64,000 nucleotides of DNA from Mycobacterium sp. NBC_00419. GTDB taxonomy: Bacteria > Actinomycetota > Actinomycetes > Mycobacteriales > Mycobacteriaceae. Below, piece after piece: positions 34,593-42,630 of this stretch. The stretch is taken from NCBI RefSeq assembly GCF_036023875.1, contig NZ_CP107931.1, positions 4,278,001 to 4,342,000 on the forward strand. The letters are read 5' to 3'. How positions within the stretch are numbered: position 1 is the stretch's first letter; every line of letters begins with the position of its first letter. A program made the translations under genes and the position numbers. The notes under the pieces were generated by a model that was not told the origin of the DNA, did no database searches, and saw nothing but the letters and a program-made list of their open reading frames with translations.

Positions 34593-34979
34593 TCATTGCA
34601 GCAGCGGGTTCAGGTCTGCGGGATCGAGGTATTCGTCGATACGCCGGATCAAGCCGTGCTCGTTCAACTTCACCACTAGACACACCCGCAGCGCCACACT
34701 TTCACCTCCGCGGGTGGTGGCGTGCAGGATGTGCTGTTGGACGAAGCCGTTGTCGAAGGCTTCGCGGTCCAGTACCTCGTAGCGGCGTGCGGTGGTGGCG
34801 CCGACGAACCACTCGATGACGCCCAGGGCGCGTGGCTTGTCGCGTTCGCGTCCACCGCCTTGGCGCCACACGACGACGTCGTCGGACCACAGGGCGGTCA
34901 GGGTCGGGATGTCACCGGTCTCGATGGCGGCGAACAACCGGTCGGCGACGTCGAGGATCTCGGTTCGGGTCGGGCTCAT
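34593..34979 (-). CDS. SnoaL-like / NTF2-fold protein
   Basis: A small NTF2-fold protein of 128 residues, with the typical opening EILDVADRLFAAIETGDIPTLTALWSDDVVVW and the closing LIRRIDEYLDPADLNPL. Members are ketosteroid-isomerase-like enzymes or binding proteins; no clear catalytic Asp/Tyr set is recognisable. ATG 34979 overlaps the stop of the DUF6285 gene by four bases (ATGA), showing it belongs to the same operon. The upstream open frame to 35054 is non-coding. Confidence 0.85.
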   Translation of the reverse strand: MSPTRTEILDVADRLFAAIETGDIPTLTALWSDDVVVWRQGGGRERDKPRALGVIEWFVGATTARRYEVLDREAFDNGFVQQHILHATTRGGESVALRVCLVVKLNEHGLIRRIDEYLDPADLNPLLQ

Positions 34980-35329
34980 GGCGCTCCTGTGTCGGGCCGG
35001 TCGTAGCCGGGGTGGGCGATGGCCAGCCGATGCCGCACCAGGGCCCGAAGGCATGGCACGACGTCCGCGGCGCGCTCGTCGAGATCGCCGGCGCGGATCG
35101 CGGCGGCCAGTGCGTCCTCGTCGGAGTAGCCGAGCCCGGACAGGGCCGCCAACGGTTCGGTGGCGCTGCGGTCGAGCAACTCGCGTTCGACCGTGCGCAG
35201 CACATTGACGGCCACCAGCGCATGGAAATTGACTGACCCGCTGGTGTTTGCGCGAACGTCGCCTTCGAGGAACTCGGCCACCGCCGCGACGAGTTCGGCC
35301 GCGGTGGGCCGCCCGTTGAGCCCGCTCAT
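34976..35329 (-). CDS. DUF6285 family protein (LvaB-like partner of the phosphotransferase)
   Basis: A small helical soluble protein of 117 residues. The family pattern RPTAAELVAAVAEFLEGDV, then FHALVAVNVLRTVEREL, is visible at the N-terminus. ATG 35329 overlaps the upstream phosphotransferase stop by four bases. In Pseudomonas putida levulinate catabolism the small protein LvaB is needed together with the kinase LvaA to phosphorylate 4-hydroxyvaleryl-CoA; this gene sits in the equivalent place. Homology to LvaB is inferred from size and context and needs a profile search. The C-terminal part (CLRALVRHRLAIAHPGYDRP) is rich in Arg/His. Confidence 0.8.
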   Translation of the reverse strand: MSGLNGRPTAAELVAAVAEFLEGDVRANTSGSVNFHALVAVNVLRTVERELLDRSATEPLAALSGLGYSDEDALAAAIRAGDLDERAADVVPCLRALVRHRLAIAHPGYDRPDTGAP

Positions 35330-36297
35330 GCCACCCCCTCCAGCAGGTCGAGGACGTCCCACTCGGTTTCGCAGACGCGCCTACCGATCGCGGCCAGTTC
35401 CACCGAGCGGCTCTGGCCCGACAGGTGACGTTCGGCCTGGAATCGGCAGATCACCCCCCAGCGCAGCGTCGCCAGCACCAGCCACCAGCGCAGGGCCTCC
35501 CGGTCGACGGGCGCGCCGCCGGCCTGCTCATAGGCGCCGACGAACTCGTCGATGCTGCCCAGACCGCCTGCCGCGCGGCTGGCCGGCGCACCGAAACGCC
35601 ATGCGCGGATGCAGAACCAGGCCAGGTCCTCGTAGATCTCGCCGATGTGCACCAGTTCCCAGTCCAGCACCGCGGCCAGATTCGAGCCGTCCACGATGAG
35701 GTTGCCCATACGGAAGTCGCCGTGTACCAGGACCGCAGCAGAGCGCGGTGGCCGGTTGGCGGCCAGCCAGCGGAACGCCCACTCGAATGTGGCTGTGGTG
35801 TCGCCCATTTCGTCAAGGCGCTGATGCCACTCGCCGAGCTGCTCCTGTTCGGCGAGATCCGGCGCATCGGTGCGGGCCCGGTGAATGGCGGCCAGCGCTG
35901 CCGCGCATTGACGCAACAAACCGGCCCGGCCGTCCTCGTCGAGGGTGCGCTGGATGCGCCGGACAATCGTCTCGCCGGCGATCTCGTCGCAGATCAGAAA
36001 CGGATTGCCCAGGGCCGCTGGGGAATTGGATGCGGCGAGGATGGTGGGAACCGGTGCTCCCGCCTCGGCTGCCGCGGCCTGCACTGCTGCCTCGAGCTCC
36101 ATACCGGCGTGGACGTCGTCGGGTGGTCCGGTGCGCAGGATCAGAGCGCGGCGCGCCGATCCGGTCAGCGCCTCGAATGCCCATGTGGTGCGGCTGGCCC
36201 CGCCGGTCAGCGCCCGCAAGTTCACCACCTCGGTCGTCGCGCCCAGCAGTGGGCGCAGTACCGCGGTGAGGTCGGCGGAGAGTTGTTCGGCTGCCAC
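35326..36297 (-). CDS. Phosphotransferase (APH) family kinase, LvaA/ACAD11-like
   Basis: APH-fold kinase of 323 residues. The N-lobe has TGGASRTTWAF, the catalytic loop is VLVHGDFRMGNLIV (HGD), and the metal-binding segment is AVLDWELVHIGEIYEDLAWFCIRAW. It lies between an acyl-CoA dehydrogenase gene (one base before) and DUF6285 (four-base overlap). That set resembles LvaA-LvaB-LvaC of levulinate catabolism and, as a fusion, mammalian ACAD10/ACAD11. In those systems the kinase phosphorylates the 4-hydroxyl of a 4-hydroxyacyl-CoA so that phosphate can be eliminated. An antibiotic-resistance role is unlikely. Confidence 0.87.
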   Translation of the reverse strand: MAAEQLSADLTAVLRPLLGATTEVVNLRALTGGASRTTWAFEALTGSARRALILRTGPPDDVHAGMELEAAVQAAAAEAGAPVPTILAASNSPAALGNPFLICDEIAGETIVRRIQRTLDEDGRAGLLRQCAAALAAIHRARTDAPDLAEQEQLGEWHQRLDEMGDTTATFEWAFRWLAANRPPRSAAVLVHGDFRMGNLIVDGSNLAAVLDWELVHIGEIYEDLAWFCIRAWRFGAPASRAAGGLGSIDEFVGAYEQAGGAPVDREALRWWLVLATLRWGVICRFQAERHLSGQSRSVELAAIGRRVCETEWDVLDLLEGVA

Positions 36298-36298
36298 C

Positions 36299-37543
36299 TC
36301 AGCGGGCCGGCTTTCCGAACTTGAACATCCGCTGGGCCACCCGGCGCATCTGAATCTCCTCGGCGCCTTCGGTGATCCGGTAGCGGCGGTGATGACGGTA
36401 GATGTGCTCGAACGGTTCGTGGCGGCTGTAGCCGATTCCGCCGTGCACCTGCATGGCCCGGTCGGCGGCCTCGCACACCAGCCGGTTGGCCCGGTAGTTG
36501 GCCATCGACACCTTGTCGGAGACCTCGAGGTGGTGATTGCGGTCGAGCTCCCACGCGGCGTAGTAGACCAGCAGGCGCACCATCTGCGCCTCGGTCTGCA
36601 GTTCTACCAGCGGCCACTGGATGGCCTGGTTTACCGACAGCGGCTTGCCGAAGGTGACCCGCTGCCCGGCATACTCGACTGCGCGGTCGATGCAGTACTG
36701 GGCGGCGCCCAGGCTGCTGGCGGCCTGACGAATTCTGTTCTCGTGCAGGAAGGTCTGGGCCACCTCCAGCCCGTGGTCGAGCTGGCCGAGCACCGCGTCG
36801 GCGGGTACCCGCACATCGCGCAGTTCCACCTCGGCGTGGTCGCTGGGCATGTTGAAGGTCCACCAGTAGTAGGGCACCTCGAATCCCTTGGCGTCGCACG
36901 GGACGAGGAACGCGGTGATGCCGCGGGCCTGGCCCGCCTCGCCGGAGGTCCGGGCGAACACCAGATCGTGGGTGGCGCGGTGCACACCGGTGTTCCAGCG
37001 CTTGGTGCCGTTGATCACCCAGTCTTGGCCGTCGCGTTCGGCCCGGGTCTCCAGCCAGGTGGCGTCGGAACCGTGGTCGGGTTCTGTCAGCCCGAACGCC
37101 ATCGACCGCGTGCCGGTCAGCATGGCTTCGATCCAGTCCTTCTTCTGATCGTCGGTGCCGAACCTGTCCATCATGATGACCTGGGGGAAGTTGCCGACGA
37201 TGGACGATTCGTCCTGGAGGTCGTTGTGCAGCCCGAGACCCTTGTGGGCCAGGTGTTCCCGGATGACGGCCATGTCGAGGTTGGTGCCGTCGCGGCCGCC
37301 GAACTTCGAGGGCAGTCCGTAGCGCAGCCAGCCGGCCTTGTCGGCGCGACGGCGCATCTCGTCGAGCAGGTCTTCCCATTCCCGACGCGGGATGCCGCCG
37401 TTGTCGACGTCGGTCCTGGCGAACTCGCGGCGCCGGTCGAAGTACTGCATGTGCTCACGCTCGAGCGGTTTGATCTCGGCCTCGATGAAGGCGTCCATCT
37501 CGGCCAGAAGTGGTGGAAGGTGTTCGGGCAGCGTGAAATCCAC
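36299..37543 (-). CDS. Acyl-CoA dehydrogenase family protein (LvaC/ACAD11-like)
   Basis: FAD-dependent acyl-CoA dehydrogenase fold, 414 residues. Segments include MAFGLTEPDHGSDATWLETRAE (flavin and substrate contacts), WVINGTKRWNTGV, RVTFGKPLSVNQAIQWPL, and HGGIGYSRHEPFEHIYRHHRRYRITEGAEEIQ near the end, where the Glu of TEGAEEIQ aligns with the usual catalytic base. With the neighbouring kinase and DUF6285 it may isomerise a 4-phosphoacyl-CoA through elimination and rehydration to a 3-hydroxyacyl-CoA instead of simple dehydrogenation. The ordinary beta-oxidation reaction remains possible. ATG 37543 lies 15 bases after the TetR stop. Confidence 0.92.
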   Translation of the reverse strand: MDFTLPEHLPPLLAEMDAFIEAEIKPLEREHMQYFDRRREFARTDVDNGGIPRREWEDLLDEMRRRADKAGWLRYGLPSKFGGRDGTNLDMAVIREHLAHKGLGLHNDLQDESSIVGNFPQVIMMDRFGTDDQKKDWIEAMLTGTRSMAFGLTEPDHGSDATWLETRAERDGQDWVINGTKRWNTGVHRATHDLVFARTSGEAGQARGITAFLVPCDAKGFEVPYYWWTFNMPSDHAEVELRDVRVPADAVLGQLDHGLEVAQTFLHENRIRQAASSLGAAQYCIDRAVEYAGQRVTFGKPLSVNQAIQWPLVELQTEAQMVRLLVYYAAWELDRNHHLEVSDKVSMANYRANRLVCEAADRAMQVHGGIGYSRHEPFEHIYRHHRRYRITEGAEEIQMRRVAQRMFKFGKPAR

Positions 37544-37558
37544 GGTGATCTCCTTGCT

Positions 37559-38185
37559 CTAGAAGCCGTACAGGGTTTTCTTCCAAATGGTGGACAGGGT
37601 GGCGATGGCTTCGGCATCGGAGAGCCGGACCCCAAGGCCCGCCGTGTCGGGGCGCAGGCACACCGTGGTGAACTGCTCGAAGAGAAGTGCGATCGCCAGC
37701 GCGGTGTGCTCGGCGTTGAGGGTACCGGCGTGACCCTGCTCCTGTGCGCGGCGCACCGAGGCGGCGACGATGTCGATGCCGAACTGGCGGAACTGGTTCT
37801 GCAGTGCCGCGAACCGGGGTTGGGTCGCGGCGAGCTGGTCGACGGCCACCATGATGCCGATGTTCTGCTTGAACATCTCCCAATACGCGTGCACCACCGT
37901 GTGGAAGAAGCCGTCGTCGTGGGGTGACTCGGGCAGGTGCACCCGTAGCCCGGACGGGAGGACCACGTCACGCAGGAACTCCTCGGCAAGGGCGGCCAGC
38001 AGGTCCTCTTTGTCGCCGAAGTACCGATAGAACACCGCCGGCGACTTACCGGCCGCCGACGTGATGTCGGACAGGGTGGTGCCGTGGAAGCCCCTCTCGG
38101 CGAACAACTTCCGCGCCGCATGCTCGATCGCCTGCTGGGTCTGACGACCCTTACTGCTCAGCGTGCGCGGGGCGTCGGCGGGCAC
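37559..38185 (-). CDS. TetR-family regulator within the catabolic cluster
   Basis: TetR regulator of 208 residues. Its helix-turn-helix lies at about residues 15-60 (QTQQAIEHAARKLFAERGFHGTTLSDITSAAGKSPAVFYRYFGDKEDLL). The ligand domain is of TetR_C type. The gene sits inside the operon between the HMG-CoA-lyase-like gene (two-base gap) and the dehydrogenase, so it is expressed with its likely targets. The 9-bp inverted repeat at 42669-42694, upstream of the first gene, is the best candidate operator; no other operator-like space exists in the cluster. Confidence 0.9.
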   Translation of the reverse strand: MPADAPRTLSSKGRQTQQAIEHAARKLFAERGFHGTTLSDITSAAGKSPAVFYRYFGDKEDLLAALAEEFLRDVVLPSGLRVHLPESPHDDGFFHTVVHAYWEMFKQNIGIMVAVDQLAATQPRFAALQNQFRQFGIDIVAASVRRAQEQGHAGTLNAEHTALAIALLFEQFTTVCLRPDTAGLGVRLSDAEAIATLSTIWKKTLYGF

Positions 38186-38187
38186 GG

Positions 38188-39093
38188 TCAGTTCAGGATC
38201 CGGTCACCGGCGCGCAGCAGTGCGCTGGGCAACTCGTGTCCGACGACGGATTGCGCGACGCGGGCGGCGTCGATGGCGGACGGCAGGTCGACACCGGTGT
38301 CGATCCCGCTGTCACGGAGCAGGTAGGCCAGGTCTTCGGTGGCGATGTTGCCGCTGGCGCCGGGGGCGAACGGGCAGCCGCCCAGGCCGCCGACCGAGGA
38401 GTCCAGCCGCCTGACCCCGGCGGCGACCGCGGCGTAGGCGCTGGCCAGGCCGGCCCCCCGGGTGTTGTGGAAATGGGCGCCCAACGGCAGCTCGCCGATG
38501 CGCGGCAGCACCTGGTTCACCAGGACGGTCACCCGCCCGGGCGTGGCGGTACCGATGGTGTCCGCGATCGCCAACCGGTCGGCACCGGAATCGCAAGCGG
38601 CGTCGACGATGTCGAGCACCCGCTGGGTCGGCGTCGGCCCGTCGAAGGGGCAATCCCACGCGGTTGCGATGATCACCTCGACACTGACGCCGGAATCGTG
38701 GGCGATCGCCACGATGTCGGCGATCTGCGCGGTGGCCTCCGCGCTGCTGCGCCCCACGTTGGCCCGGCTGTGACCGTCGGCCGCCGATACCACGTATTCC
38801 ACCGACCGCAGTCCCGCCGCGATCGCCCGCTTGGCGCCGTTGGCGCTGGCCACCAACGCCGAGAATTCGATGTCGGGATAGTCGCCCAGGTGGGCCGCCA
38901 GCTCGGGTGCGTCGGCCAGTGCCGGCACCTTCGACGGCGAGACGAACGCGGTGGCCTCGACCTCGCGGACGCCGGTTGCCGCGATCGCGGCCAACAGTTC
39001 GAGCTTGGCGCTCAACGGAATCGGCGCCTCGATCTGCAGACCGTCGCGCAGCGCGACTTCGCGGATCGTGACGTGCGAGGGCAGCGTGGTCAC
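38188..39093 (-). CDS. Hydroxymethylglutaryl-CoA lyase family protein
   Basis: A TIM-barrel DRE-TIM metallolyase of 301 residues. The HMGL-like signature begins VTIREVALRDGLQIE (metal-binding Asp and catalytic Arg). Further motifs are FVSPSKVPALADAPEL, the metal histidines in LGAHFHNTRGAGLASAY, and the catalytic cysteine loop GGLGGCPFAPGASGNIATEDL. It should cleave a 3-hydroxy-3-methylglutaryl-CoA-like substrate to acetyl-CoA and a keto acid. In this cluster it may act downstream of the kinase/dehydrogenase trio. It overlaps the CoA-transferase stop by four bases (ATGA). The exact substrate is unknown; related lyases act on longer 3-hydroxy-3-methylacyl-CoAs. Confidence 0.9.
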   Translation of the reverse strand: MTTLPSHVTIREVALRDGLQIEAPIPLSAKLELLAAIAATGVREVEATAFVSPSKVPALADAPELAAHLGDYPDIEFSALVASANGAKRAIAAGLRSVEYVVSAADGHSRANVGRSSAEATAQIADIVAIAHDSGVSVEVIIATAWDCPFDGPTPTQRVLDIVDAACDSGADRLAIADTIGTATPGRVTVLVNQVLPRIGELPLGAHFHNTRGAGLASAYAAVAAGVRRLDSSVGGLGGCPFAPGASGNIATEDLAYLLRDSGIDTGVDLPSAIDAARVAQSVVGHELPSALLRAGDRILN

Positions 39094-40331
39094 AGCACCC
39101 CCTGGAATTCCAGGTCGGCGATCTCGTTGGCCTTGAGCCCCAGCAGGTCGCCGTACACCTCGCTGTTGTGTTGGCCGGGCCGCGCGGGGCCGGCATTGCG
39201 GACACTACCCGGGCTCTCCGACAGCACCGGAATGACGCCGGGTCCCAGCACGTTTCGGCCGATGCCTTCGTCGTAGTGTTCGACCAGCATGCCGCGGGCC
39301 TGCAGCTGCGGATCGCGCACCACCTCGGCGACGGTGTTGATCGGCCCGCTGATGACACCGGCGGCACTGAGGGTGTCGATGACGTCATCGGGCTGACGCT
39401 GGGCGGCCCAGTCGCCGATGATCTTGTCCAGCTCGTCCTGGTTGCGGCCGCGTGCCACGTGGTCGACGAACCGGTCGTCGGTGGCCAGTTCGGGTTGGCC
39501 CATCGCTGCGCACAGCCGGCGGAACACGGTGTCCTGATTGGCGGCGATCACCACCCAGCTGCCGTCGGCGGTGCGGTAGATGTTCGACGGCGCAATGCCT
39601 TCCAGCCGGGTGCCCGACGGTCCGCGCACGATGCCGCCGACGTCGTAGTCCGGGATGGTGGATTCCTGGATGGCCAGGCACGCTTCGGTCAGGGCGGCGT
39701 CGACGACCTGCCCCTCGCCGGTGACGGTGCGCCGGTAGAGCGCAGCCAGCGCGCCCTGTGTGGCGAACATTCCGGCCAGGCTGTCGCCCAGCGACAGGGC
39801 CAGCCGCGGCGGGGGACCGCCGGGGAAGCCGTTCATATGGCGCAGGCCGCTGGCGGCCTCGGCCACCGACGCGTAGCCGGCCTTGTTGGCGTCCGGTCCG
39901 GTCTGACCGTAGCCGGAGATCCGGACCAGGATGATGCCCTTGTTGTGTTGGCGCAGAACGTCATAGCCCAGCCCCCACTTCTCCAGGGTGCCGGGGCGGA
40001 AGTTCTCGACGATGATGTCGGAACGTTCGACGAGCTTGAGGAACAGCTCACGGCCGCGGGGCTCGCGCAGGTTCAGGGTGATGCACTTCTTGTTGCGCGC
40101 GTGCACGGTCCAAAAGAAGTGGTGCCCGTCGATCTCGGCTTGCCCCCAGGTGCGGATCGGGTCGGGGGAGCCGGGCGGTTCGATCTTGACGACCTCGGCG
40201 CCCATGTCGCCGAGCAGCCGGCCGGCGAACGGTCCGGAGATCAGCGTGCCGACTTCGATGACCCGGATACCGTCGAGTGCGCCGGTGGGTGGCGCGGTGT
40301 TTCGGCTCTTGCTCCTGCGCTCGGGTTCCAT
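39090..40331 (-). CDS. CaiB/BaiF-family CoA-transferase
   Basis: Class III CoA-transferase of 413 residues. The opening GIRVIEVGTLISGPFAGRLLGDMGAEVVKIEPPGSPDP is typical; the catalytic Asp position of the family falls around SLGDSLAGMFATQGALAAL. It moves CoA between carboxylic acids (for example from succinyl-CoA) and so could activate the cluster's substrate; no acyl-CoA synthetase gene is present nearby. It starts at ATG 40331 beside the hydrolase stop, without a gap. A racemase of the same fold is a less likely alternative. Confidence 0.92.
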   Translation of the reverse strand: MEPERRSKSRNTAPPTGALDGIRVIEVGTLISGPFAGRLLGDMGAEVVKIEPPGSPDPIRTWGQAEIDGHHFFWTVHARNKKCITLNLREPRGRELFLKLVERSDIIVENFRPGTLEKWGLGYDVLRQHNKGIILVRISGYGQTGPDANKAGYASVAEAASGLRHMNGFPGGPPPRLALSLGDSLAGMFATQGALAALYRRTVTGEGQVVDAALTEACLAIQESTIPDYDVGGIVRGPSGTRLEGIAPSNIYRTADGSWVVIAANQDTVFRRLCAAMGQPELATDDRFVDHVARGRNQDELDKIIGDWAAQRQPDDVIDTLSAAGVISGPINTVAEVVRDPQLQARGMLVEHYDEGIGRNVLGPGVIPVLSESPGSVRNAGPARPGQHNSEVYGDLLGLKANEIADLEFQGVL

Positions 40332-41525
40332 CTAGTCCGCCTTCGCGAAATCGTGTCGCACCAACCAGTCGGTCACCACGCCGACCGCCCTGGCCAGCGT
40401 CTCACGCTGGTCGGGACCGGAGTAGTAGTGGTTGGCACCGTCGATCTCGTGCATCTCCTTGTCCGGATGGCCGATCGCCTCGAACAGCCGCCGGGTGTGG
40501 CTGGGCGTGCATGCGTCGTCGGCGAGGTTTCCGATCACCAGCGAAGGCACCGTGATGTCCGCGCCGCACTGCACGCCGTCGCCGTTGGCATCGTCGTAGC
40601 TCCATTGCGACAGCCAGCTGCGCAGTGAGCAGAACCGGGCCAGGCCGATCGGACTCATGTTCACCACCGCAGGATCGCCCAGATAGCAGGTGCCGGGGGT
40701 GCGATCGTTGGGATCGACGGCGGGGTCGAGCCAGCGCGGGTCGGCCATGGTGCCGTGCACCACGAACGCGTACTCGGCTACGTCCGCGCCGGGGGCACCG
40801 CTGCCCTTCAGCTCGGCCAGTTTCGCCTTGACCCACGCCGTGATCCGGCGGTTGCGCTCGATCTGCGCCCGGCGGTAGCGGGCCAGGAACTCGGCGGTGT
40901 ACGGCGGCTGGTTGGGGTTGTCCGGGTTGTAAAGGTCGAGTTCGGGATCGCGCTTGGTGGGGTCGGACTCGTCGAGGATCGAGGCGTCCAGCCACTCGGT
41001 CAGCGTGCCGTGGCGGCTGATGTGCGCGGCCAGCAGCATGATGCCGTCGGCCGGGATCAGGCCCAGCGTGGTCAGGTCGGGGCCGTCGCCGGACGGGCTG
41101 GCGGTGACGGTCGGCTTCTGCGCCTGCTGCTGGTAGAACATCGACAGCGAGCCGCCGCCACTCCAGCCGGCCAGCACCACCTTCGAGTAGCCGAGCCGGT
41201 TCTTGGCGTCCTTGATCGCCTCACCGAGATCCTGGACCACCTTCTCCATCAGCAATGCGGAGTCGGTGCCGCGGAATCGGCTGTTGCAGTAGATGACGTG
41301 GTGGCCGGCACGGGCCAGTGCGTTGATCATCGGCAGGTAGGCGCCGCCGCCGATCGGGTGCATGAACACCAGCACGGTGTCGGACGGCTCGGTTGGCTTC
41401 AGCAGATAGCTTTCCAGGACCACCAGCTCGGCGACGCCGCCGTAGACGTCACGAACACCCGAATCATTCTGGTAGGCAATGAGATACGGGATCCGCTCGT
41501 AGGCCCGCTTCGCCGGAGTCGCCAT
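40332..41525 (-). CDS. Alpha/beta hydrolase
   Basis: An alpha/beta-hydrolase of 397 residues. The oxyanion strand is LVFMHPIGGGAYLPM, the nucleophile elbow VLAGWSGGGSLSMFY (GWSGG), and the C-terminal acid/His region NLADDACTPSHTRR and IDGANHYYSGP. The size and long lid (residues 180-290) suggest a hydrophobic substrate. ATG 41525 (MATPAKRAYERIP) lies one base after the stop of the dioxygenase-like gene; the open frame upstream of it is inside that gene and non-coding. It may open a lactone or ester to give the hydroxy acid used by the rest of the cluster (inference). Confidence 0.88.
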   Translation of the reverse strand: MATPAKRAYERIPYLIAYQNDSGVRDVYGGVAELVVLESYLLKPTEPSDTVLVFMHPIGGGAYLPMINALARAGHHVIYCNSRFRGTDSALLMEKVVQDLGEAIKDAKNRLGYSKVVLAGWSGGGSLSMFYQQQAQKPTVTASPSGDGPDLTTLGLIPADGIMLLAAHISRHGTLTEWLDASILDESDPTKRDPELDLYNPDNPNQPPYTAEFLARYRRAQIERNRRITAWVKAKLAELKGSGAPGADVAEYAFVVHGTMADPRWLDPAVDPNDRTPGTCYLGDPAVVNMSPIGLARFCSLRSWLSQWSYDDANGDGVQCGADITVPSLVIGNLADDACTPSHTRRLFEAIGHPDKEMHEIDGANHYYSGPDQRETLARAVGVVTDWLVRHDFAKAD

Positions 41526-41526
41526 C

Positions 41527-42630
41527 TCAGTGCTGCCCGAGATCATTGGCCAACACCTCGGCCGACGGAACGAGTCGCTGCCGGGTGTCGATGGCGATGA
41601 CCTGCCAGTCCACGCTGGTGTAGTCGTCGAACTTGCGCCGGGCACGTTCCCGGGCCTTCTCCGGCGCGCCGTGATGAACGCCCTGGGGCGCGTGGCTGAT
41701 CAGTCCCGGCGGCATCGGGATGCCGTACAGGGAGCCGCCGTGGAAGAACGCGATCTCGTCGAAGTCGACGTTGCGGTGATACCAGGGCGTGCGTTCAGTG
41801 CCGGGGACGGTCTCGGCCGGCTTGGGCAGGAAGTTGCAGACGTAGACGCCGGTCGCCTCCATGAAGAGATGGACCATCGGCGGCAGGTGCACGCTGTCCG
41901 AGGTGATGACGTTGTAGTCGGCGATATTGAAGGTGAACGCGTAGTTGTCCCCGCGCCAACCCTCGACGTCGATCGGGTTGTGCGGATAGCTGAGTGTCGT
42001 CGTCTGCACGCCGTCGATCGGGCGGTGGTAGAGCCGCACCTCGTATTCGTCGCGGCCGTCGTCCTCGATAGCTTCCGGTTCGGGAATCACGGCCTGCGAC
42101 GGGTCGAAGGGCCAATGCCTGCCCAGCGGGCCTGCCGGGGGCACCCGGAACTCGTCGGTGGCCTCGATGATCAGCCAGGTGCTATCGGTAGTTGGCAGCT
42201 GCCGCCACGTGCACGCCTTGGGCAGGTATATCCAGTCACCGGTGCGGTAGCTCAGTGGCCCGAACTCGGTCTCCAGGCGACCGGAGCCCTGGTGGACGAA
42301 GCACAACAGGTCACCGTCGATGTAGCGGACATAGAAGGGCATCTCCTGGCTGCGCCGGCTCAGCGAAATGCGGCAGTCGGAGTTGGAGAACAGCAGCAGC
42401 GGGGCCCCGGCCGCGTCCGTGGCGTCACTCGGTTTGAGCTCACTTGCCAGGACATCCACAGGTCGCAACGGGCCGGTGGCGCGAAATTCCGTGGGATCGT
42501 TACGCCGGTAGATGTTGGCCGTCCGTCCGGTGAACCCACCCCGGCCTAATTCGTCGTCCTTGAGGCCGTCCAGGTCGGCGTGAACTCGCCGAGGAGTCTT
42601 GCCTTTGCGCAGGTGAGTGAACGATTCCAT
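41527..42630 (-). CDS. Homogentisate 1,2-dioxygenase-like protein
   Basis: A cupin-type protein of 367 residues resembling homogentisate 1,2-dioxygenase but shorter than the roughly 430-440 residues of the classical enzyme. The C-terminal metal region is present: WYHRNVDFDEIAFFHGG holds the expected His and Glu, followed by PQGVHHGAPE. In the classical pathway it would open an aromatic ring to maleylacetoacetate, but the isomerase and hydrolase genes of that pathway are not nearby. It may therefore act on another dihydroxy-aromatic compound. ATG 42630 has GGGAG upstream; the frame extends to 42762 but is not coding there. It is the first gene of the cluster. Confidence 0.82.
   Translation of the reverse strand: MESFTHLRKGKTPRRVHADLDGLKDDELGRGGFTGRTANIYRRNDPTEFRATGPLRPVDVLASELKPSDATDAAGAPLLLFSNSDCRISLSRRSQEMPFYVRYIDGDLLCFVHQGSGRLETEFGPLSYRTGDWIYLPKACTWRQLPTTDSTWLIIEATDEFRVPPAGPLGRHWPFDPSQAVIPEPEAIEDDGRDEYEVRLYHRPIDGVQTTTLSYPHNPIDVEGWRGDNYAFTFNIADYNVITSDSVHLPPMVHLFMEATGVYVCNFLPKPAETVPGTERTPWYHRNVDFDEIAFFHGGSLYGIPMPPGLISHAPQGVHHGAPEKARERARRKFDDYTSVDWQVIAIDTRQRLVPSAEVLANDLGQH

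Follow-up and report, generated by a model that had tools for sequence, protein, structure and literature searches.

Is a mycobacterial trio of genes for an acyl-CoA dehydrogenase (ACAD), an APH-fold kinase and a DUF6285 protein an LvaABC module like that of the levulinate operon, or a variant of one? The trio lies on the minus strand of the window (the whole 64,000-nucleotide stretch of DNA that was analysed), where a preliminary description had placed it. The 414-aa dehydrogenase (36299..37543, minus strand) has Pfam ACAD domains, the 323-aa kinase (35326..36297, minus strand) matches PF01636 at 122.4 bits (cut-off 23.2), and the 117-aa DUF6285 protein (34976..35329, minus strand) matches PF19802 at 78.3 bits (cut-off 28.1). 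The kinase gene begins one base past the dehydrogenase stop, and it overlaps the DUF6285 gene by four bases. Coordinates and Pfam domains therefore bear out the three-gene set and the spacing first described. A mycobacterium had also been named as the host, and this is supported because the nearest named genes of class B, as we call the clade of the window dehydrogenase, come from Mycolicibacterium and Mycobacterium and are 93-95% identical to the window's.

The kinase matches LvaA along its full length (33% identity over 325 columns, 155 bits). Against the APH(3') model of antibiotic kinases it reaches 41.5 bits (cut-off 205), from a program different from that behind the LvaA score. Its catalytic loop, HGDFRMGN (residues 192-199; 35701..35724, minus strand), includes H192, D194, R196, G198 and N199, and its LDWE motif (residues 211-214; 35656..35667, minus strand), which we take to bind metal, includes D212, W213 and E214, all invariant among 13 aligned kinases. 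Both motifs read in the preliminary description, HGD (within VHGDFRMGN) and LDWE, are present. By sequence, the kinase tests as an LvaA-type enzyme, with phosphorylation of a hydroxyacyl-CoA as its predicted activity. On a kinase tree of 68 rows, the partner classes interchange; the tree omits the very long branches L184 and L186, two haloarchaeal kinases, and five near-duplicate, duplicate or fragment rows, and eight unlinked class B genomes are marked on it. A 72-row tree that includes L184 and L186 has more partner switches.

The link between the DUF6285 protein and LvaB runs through the family profile, since direct BLASTP of the window protein against the annotated LvaB is not significant (E 3.1). 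The annotated lvaB product of p12939-PER scores 85.3 bits on PF19802, against the cut-off of 28.1 and the 78.3 bits of the window protein, and judged by this profile DUF6285 is the LvaB family, although the Pfam name still reads 'unknown function'. The AlphaFold2 model is predicted to be all-helical, with five helices and a pLDDT of 90; Foldseek returned no match to it in the PDB at E ≤ 0.001, and a profile search for solved relatives found none. We found no mention of DUF6285 in the literature searched, and the available excerpts of the LvaB reports describe a 12 kDa partner required alongside LvaA and state nothing further of it (PMC6692424, PMC12440821, PMC11342911).

Among loci chosen by DUF6285, an LvaA-like kinase occurs in the same stretch at 40 of 40 same-family loci (a subset of 54 places) and at 19 of 20 from the phylum (59/60 overall), which indicates that the pairing is more than chance. 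Kinase-DUF6285 fusions account for 25 of the 40 and 3 of the 20. At the sole locus lacking a kinase (L142) the stretch stops at a contig end, and at another (L061) the dehydrogenase gene sits between the kinase and DUF6285 genes. Pfam and hhalign (two-row alignment, probability 1.7%) gave no support for identifying the small protein in the haloarchaeal trios as DUF6285.

Does the dehydrogenase, in turn, resemble LvaC? Four ACAD11 residues, R626, H634, R637 and D753, are reported to be necessary for phosphate removal; in the available excerpts of that report, non-conservative changes did most damage at R626, H634 and R637, and the step was abolished when D753 became Asn (PMC12440821). At these positions the window dehydrogenase has F, Q, S and E, a set that recurs across class B in actinobacteria, alphaproteobacteria and haloarchaea. 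The clamp residues R, H and R are present in the plasmid LvaC and in a host HCMR/Asp dehydrogenase that we presumptively name FadE2-like. In class B the pocket helix that carries R626...HCMR in ACAD11 and LvaC spans residues 265-276 (FLHENRIRQAAS; 36716..36751, minus strand), and the catalytic position, Asp753 in ACAD11, is Glu392 (36368..36370, minus strand). The aligned residues show that the phosphate clamp is missing from class B, whether by loss or from the outset, and that Glu takes the place of the catalytic Asp. Common to class B and class A (the LvaC/FadE2-like HCMR/Asp dehydrogenases) are Q624 and H597, near FAD, the latter being His in 25/25 class A and 19/19 class B rows. The invariant polar residues of class B include R272, Q273, E112 and H236, and its pocket helix has an invariant Arg-Gln, which differs from the prevailing pair in class A and in other dehydrogenases.

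Phylogeny places class B (18 rows; clade support 100/100) as sister to class A (22 rows) with support of 100/93, in an ACAD tree from which ACAD10/11 themselves are absent. Glutaryl-CoA dehydrogenase is not among its rows, and 9 of 70 rows were omitted, being long branches, duplicates or L165, an anomalous sequence that grouped within class A; a quick tree with the nine restored gives A+B (with L165) 85 by SH-aLRT. The window dehydrogenase is 30% identical to LvaC, and this identity, together with the clade being sister to LvaC/ACAD11, makes it likely that class B keeps a related function in handling a phosphorylated acyl-CoA. Profile and sequence comparison with LvaA, LvaB and LvaC thus divides the preliminary description: its LvaA-like kinase, with catalytic residues intact, and its LvaB-like DUF6285 protein hold, whereas its LvaC-type dehydrogenase has the wrong signature (F/Q/S for the clamp, Glu for Asp) and falls in the wrong clade.

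Across 396 genomes of the phylum, DUF6285 occurs in 21 of 21 with class B and in 18 of 375 without it, counts that ignore kinship. At 14 of 80 class B loci there is no nearby kinase match, and in 3 of these 14 the stretch stops no more than 0.9 kb from the class B match. A wider kinase profile run near the lone class B genes (L242-L267) added one weak match (28 bits, L243), and no kinase lies within 9 kb of class B at L091. By Pfam, ten open reading frames near the lone genes L243, L248 and L262 encode a P450, dehydratase, binding protein, helicase or exonuclease, or match nothing. Three genomes, G095 (L068/L085), G119 (L058/L084) and G092 (L060/L074), carry both modules, which are therefore unlikely to be simple equivalents. 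In G023, a separate class B gene lies ~1.3 kb from another APH kinase (L184).

The trio belongs to a larger minus-strand block. At its head is a homogentisate-dioxygenase-like cupin (41527..42630, likely start ATG 42630; PDB 3zds, E 1.9e-11) that scores 46.5 bits on TIGR01015, far under the cut-off of 510.75. It is followed by an alpha/beta hydrolase (40332..41525, likely start ATG 41525; Pfam matches), a family III, CaiB-like CoA-transferase (39090..40331; PF02515, 404.5 bits), an HMG-CoA lyase family protein (38188..39093; NF004283, 281.7 bits, cut-off 246) and, inside the block, a TetR-family regulator (37559..38185; PF00440, 61.7 bits), all conserved. After the trio comes a SnoaL-like protein (34593..34979, minus strand; PF12680, 39.8 bits) that adjoins the trio in relatives. 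Neither an LvaD reductase nor an LvaE acyl-CoA synthetase is among the genes annotated on this strand between 34049 and 42630, and we found no paper on the trio in mycobacteria, or on its gene set, in the literature searched. Elsewhere in the host genome, three HCMR/Asp dehydrogenases adjoin kinases without DUF6285. Phosphorylation and isomerisation of a 4-hydroxyacyl-CoA, proposed for the trio in the preliminary description, fits these three loci better. The literature located for FadE2 together with 4-hydroxy compounds mostly concerns steroids.

So, what might the trio do? We regard it, with slightly better than even confidence, as a variant Lva / ACAD10-11 module. The kinase-LvaB pair would phosphorylate a hydroxyacyl-CoA at its hydroxyl; the product would pass to the class B flavoenzyme, at the point occupied by LvaC in the lva pathway. 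The polar residues invariant in class B may bind this product, after which the enzyme would oxidise it or release its phosphate. Because the mycobacterial block keeps an HMG-CoA-lyase-type enzyme alongside a CoA-transferase, a hydroxy acid that is branched or carboxylated might conceivably be the substrate: the transferase would convert it to its CoA ester, and the lyase would cleave it at the end. More tentatively, and with the balance somewhat against it, class B may represent another type of flavoenzyme coupled to a kinase, one so far undescribed, that handles a phosphoacyl-CoA other than by the redox-neutral elimination of ACAD10/11 (e.g., oxidation with phosphate expulsion to a dienoyl-CoA, electrons passing to ETF), on substrates of a class for which no need of phosphorylation is yet known. 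Counted against the variant-module reading were the change of all four ACAD11 residues and the ranking of ordinary dehydrogenases above ACAD11, as well as the dual-module genomes, the G023 locus, the class B loci lacking a kinase, the haloarchaeal small protein with no detectable match to DUF6285, and the disregard of kinship in the co-occurrence counts.

We rather doubt that class B works as a conventional flavin dehydrogenase, with a Glu base and electrons passing to ETF, that acts at another step before or after the kinase while a different enzyme handles the phosphorylated intermediate. The lack of a clamp suits this, as do the catalytic Glu, the Ala-Ala in place of Cys-Met and the Tyr at ACAD11 position 733, which occur in most of 26 other dehydrogenases and hardly in class A. 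A single-sequence search places 1ukw (E 8.6e-50) ahead of ACAD11 (1.3e-37), Foldseek with the class B model puts 1ukw and human SCAD first and ACAD11 at rank 17, and the same genome has unlinked class A enzymes. Against it stand the grouping of class B with class A, the co-occurrence with DUF6285 and the invariant Arg-Gln. That class B is a functional LvaC, converting a 4-phosphoacyl-CoA, by elimination of phosphate, to the 2-enoyl-CoA and on to the 3-hydroxyacyl-CoA with R272/Q273 in place of the clamp, we consider unlikely: all four residues important in ACAD11 (PMC12440821, excerpts) are altered, and the modules coexist in three genomes. Points for it are the sister clade, the G023 block, the interchange of partners among the kinases of the tree, and R272 (ACAD11 position 633), seven residues past 626 and four before 637, which by helix periodicity should be on about the same face as both, residues 258-294 forming one helix in the model. 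Very unlikely, finally, is action of the kinase pair on a non-acyl-CoA hydroxylated small molecule, with the dehydrogenase as a pathway neighbour. In its favour are the breadth of the APH-fold family, nine further host matches to the window kinase (26-36% identical) and the minority of genomes in which class B stands unlinked; the LvaA and APH(3') scores, and the kinase partner of DUF6285 at nearly every fetched locus, argue the other way.

The LvaB family is tied to many kinase fusions and trios, which offer ready material for testing it. With a clade sister to the ACAD10/11-type lyases that has the same kinase and lacks the supposedly essential residues, the flavin 'rebound' mechanism becomes directly testable: phosphate may be expelled by ways other than the clamp, or phosphorylation may serve some other reaction. 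An answer would also name a catabolic block kept across many mycobacteria.

The parallels with known systems are close but incomplete. In LvaABC, as in the trio, the kinase gene overlaps the LvaB/DUF6285 gene by four bases and an ACAD-fold enzyme is added (PMC6692424, PMC12440821, PMC11342911, excerpts), whereas the third enzyme of the window lacks the R...HCMR clamp and the Asp. In place of LvaD and LvaE types, the window has the CoA-transferase, HMG-CoA-lyase type, alpha/beta hydrolase, dioxygenase-like cupin, TetR and SnoaL genes. Mammalian ACAD10 and ACAD11 likewise couple a kinase to an ACAD, and in structural alignment the class B model reaches its highest Z with ACAD11 structures, one other family tying; the trio differs in its separate chains, its extra LvaB subunit and its changes at R626, H634, R637 and D753. 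We know of no kinase partner for glutaryl-CoA dehydrogenase. This enzyme is an ACAD with a charged residue in its acyl pocket, an analogous Arg (PMC12440821, excerpts). The host FadE2-like protein and the other HCMR/Asp dehydrogenases have the ACAD fold and belong with class B to the A+B superclade, but unlike class B they have both the clamp and the Asp.

Three minus-strand genes make up the trio: one for an acyl-CoA dehydrogenase at 36299-37543, one for an APH-fold kinase at 35326-36297 and one for a DUF6285 protein of 117 residues at 34976-35329, with 1 base between dehydrogenase and kinase and a 4-base overlap between the kinase and DUF6285 genes. Position and layout are as stated in the preliminary description, and profiles support each family assignment. 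The kinase, proposed there as the counterpart of LvaA, is indeed LvaA-like by sequence (33% identity over 325 columns, catalytic residues intact), and the solved structures closest to it in sequence include the kinase domain of ACAD11 and 3dxp, a kinase deposited under the name 'putative acyl-CoA dehydrogenase'. The window encodes a further APH-fold kinase of 379 aa (PF01636; 13680-14819, minus), distant from that of the trio.

The suggestion that the small protein corresponds to LvaB also held, as judged by profile. A complete lva operon is present on the Pseudomonas plasmid p12939-PER; the gene annotated lvaB in it overlaps the kinase gene by 4 bases and encodes a protein that reaches 85.3 bits on PF19802. 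The link was made through this profile because direct BLASTP between the window protein and the plasmid LvaB gave no significant match (E 3.1). By this measure DUF6285 is the LvaB family, and in other Lva-type clusters a DUF6285 gene adjoins the kinase. The domain is fused to the kinase C-terminus in 25 of 40 loci from the host's family and 3 of 20 from its phylum, and 59 of the 60 fetched loci include a kinase within the stretch (at L061, with the dehydrogenase between the two). Such fusions and proximity agree with LvaB as a kinase partner, as indicated by the pull-down of Rand et al. recounted in PMC6692424. DUF6285 is predicted to form five helices (model pLDDT 90); structure and profile searches gave no convincing solved relative.

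The dehydrogenase, which had been proposed as the LvaC counterpart, is by its signature residues not LvaC. In mouse ACAD11, R626, H634, R637 and D753 are reported to take part in binding or processing of the 4-phosphate; the strongest disruption came from non-conservative substitutions at the first three, and the ACAD step was lost when Asn replaced the catalytic Asp (PMC12440821). In the window enzyme the corresponding residues are F, Q, S and E. All four ACAD11 residues are kept in the plasmid LvaC and in a host protein that we take to be FadE2-like from its phosphatase and transhydrogenase-like neighbours (G000:C1 3001788-3003035, minus; L013 5789-7036). The gene for the latter overlaps a tyrosine-phosphatase-family gene (PF13350) by 4 bases, and none of the genome's matches to the trio kinase lies nearby. 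In four clusters with class A enzymes, those having the LvaC/ACAD11-type HCMR clamp and catalytic Asp (L095, L096, L100, L102), kinase-DUF6285 is followed by a histidine phosphatase family gene.

The window enzyme belongs to a sister clade, class B, scored by the pair R-Q at positions 633-634 together with Glu at 753 (ACAD11 numbering). Of the 40 family loci, 29 have class B, with the other signature positions identical too, 7 have class A instead and 4 neither class nearby. The complete set is present at 76 of 80 named loci retrieved with other peptide patterns; among the remaining four, S is replaced by A once, one sequence breaks off short of the catalytic residue, and two are unreadable. 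In a plasmid sequence (L091) G takes the place of S.

Class B and DUF6285 occur together. Of 396 phylum genomes, drawn alike by both searches, 39 have DUF6285 and 21, all of them within those 39, have class B (E ≤ 1e-110); the chance of this overlap is 1.5e-24 treating genomes as independent and 1.1e-12 by genus, with kinship uncorrected. The two genes are on different contigs or >1 Mb apart in 8 of the 21 (G181, G186, G238, G259, G301, G396, G454, G520). DUF6285 was also found in 15 of 15 picked named class B genomes (one probably the same genome as G454), including 11 where no kinase was found beside class B. Of 20 fetched loci with kinase and DUF6285 from other families of the phylum (L134-L151, L153), 16 lack both class A and class B enzymes within the stretch, and 8 genomes of those 16 encode class B elsewhere. 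Two haloarchaeal plasmids (L088, L089) encode a class B dehydrogenase, an APH kinase and a 159-residue protein without a DUF6285 match, possibly an unrelated replacement for LvaB.

Dehydrogenase partners interchange. In a 68-row kinase tree the partner class changes at least 3 times among linked genes, and 5 times including unlinked class B. In G023 the mycobacterial block comes together with SnoaL, a kinase/DUF6285 fusion and an enzyme of class A; identity is 64% for its CoA-transferase and 58% for its lyase, against 45% and 40% for the next matches in the G023 genome. Two observations count against a simple swap: G023 keeps a separate class B gene near another APH kinase, and the genomes G095, G119 and G092 each have both modules, one with class A and one with class B. 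The evidence is best read as a variant module: by homology, the kinase-LvaB pair would phosphorylate a hydroxyacyl-CoA and, as clade, co-occurrence and partner interchange suggest, class B would process the phosphorylated product with a rebuilt pocket.

The block runs on one strand: a conserved cupin distantly like homogentisate 1,2-dioxygenase at its head (41527-42630, minus), an alpha/beta hydrolase, a family III CoA-transferase, an HMG-CoA-lyase family protein, TetR, the trio, a SnoaL-like protein and YceI. Its upstream part keeps this order in 9 of 10 extended regions of relatives (in two, TetR is preceded by an additional gap); in the tenth, G085, the trio is present and the upstream part absent within the stretch fetched. 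The CoA-transferase and lyase hint at a hydroxy acid that is branched or carboxylated, a weak hint because class B genes outside mycobacteria are flanked by different genes. Both genes occur at 56 of 80 class B loci (counted from the locus table), mostly records named Mycobacterium or Mycolicibacterium, the remainder being uncultured or misnamed bins.

The flavin chemistry is described as unsettled even for ACAD10/11 (PMC12440821, PMC11342911), which makes a natural variant without the clamp useful. The host's single DUF6285 gene is that of the window. At least five class A dehydrogenases were found among the host paralogues examined, three beside APH kinases (G000:C1, about 5073194-5075418, L187; 2479141-2482296, L186; 2498614-2500610, L008/L173). 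These three pairs, which resemble a two-protein LvaA/LvaC or ACAD10/11 in split form, are probably ordinary 4-hydroxyacyl-CoA systems of this bacterium.
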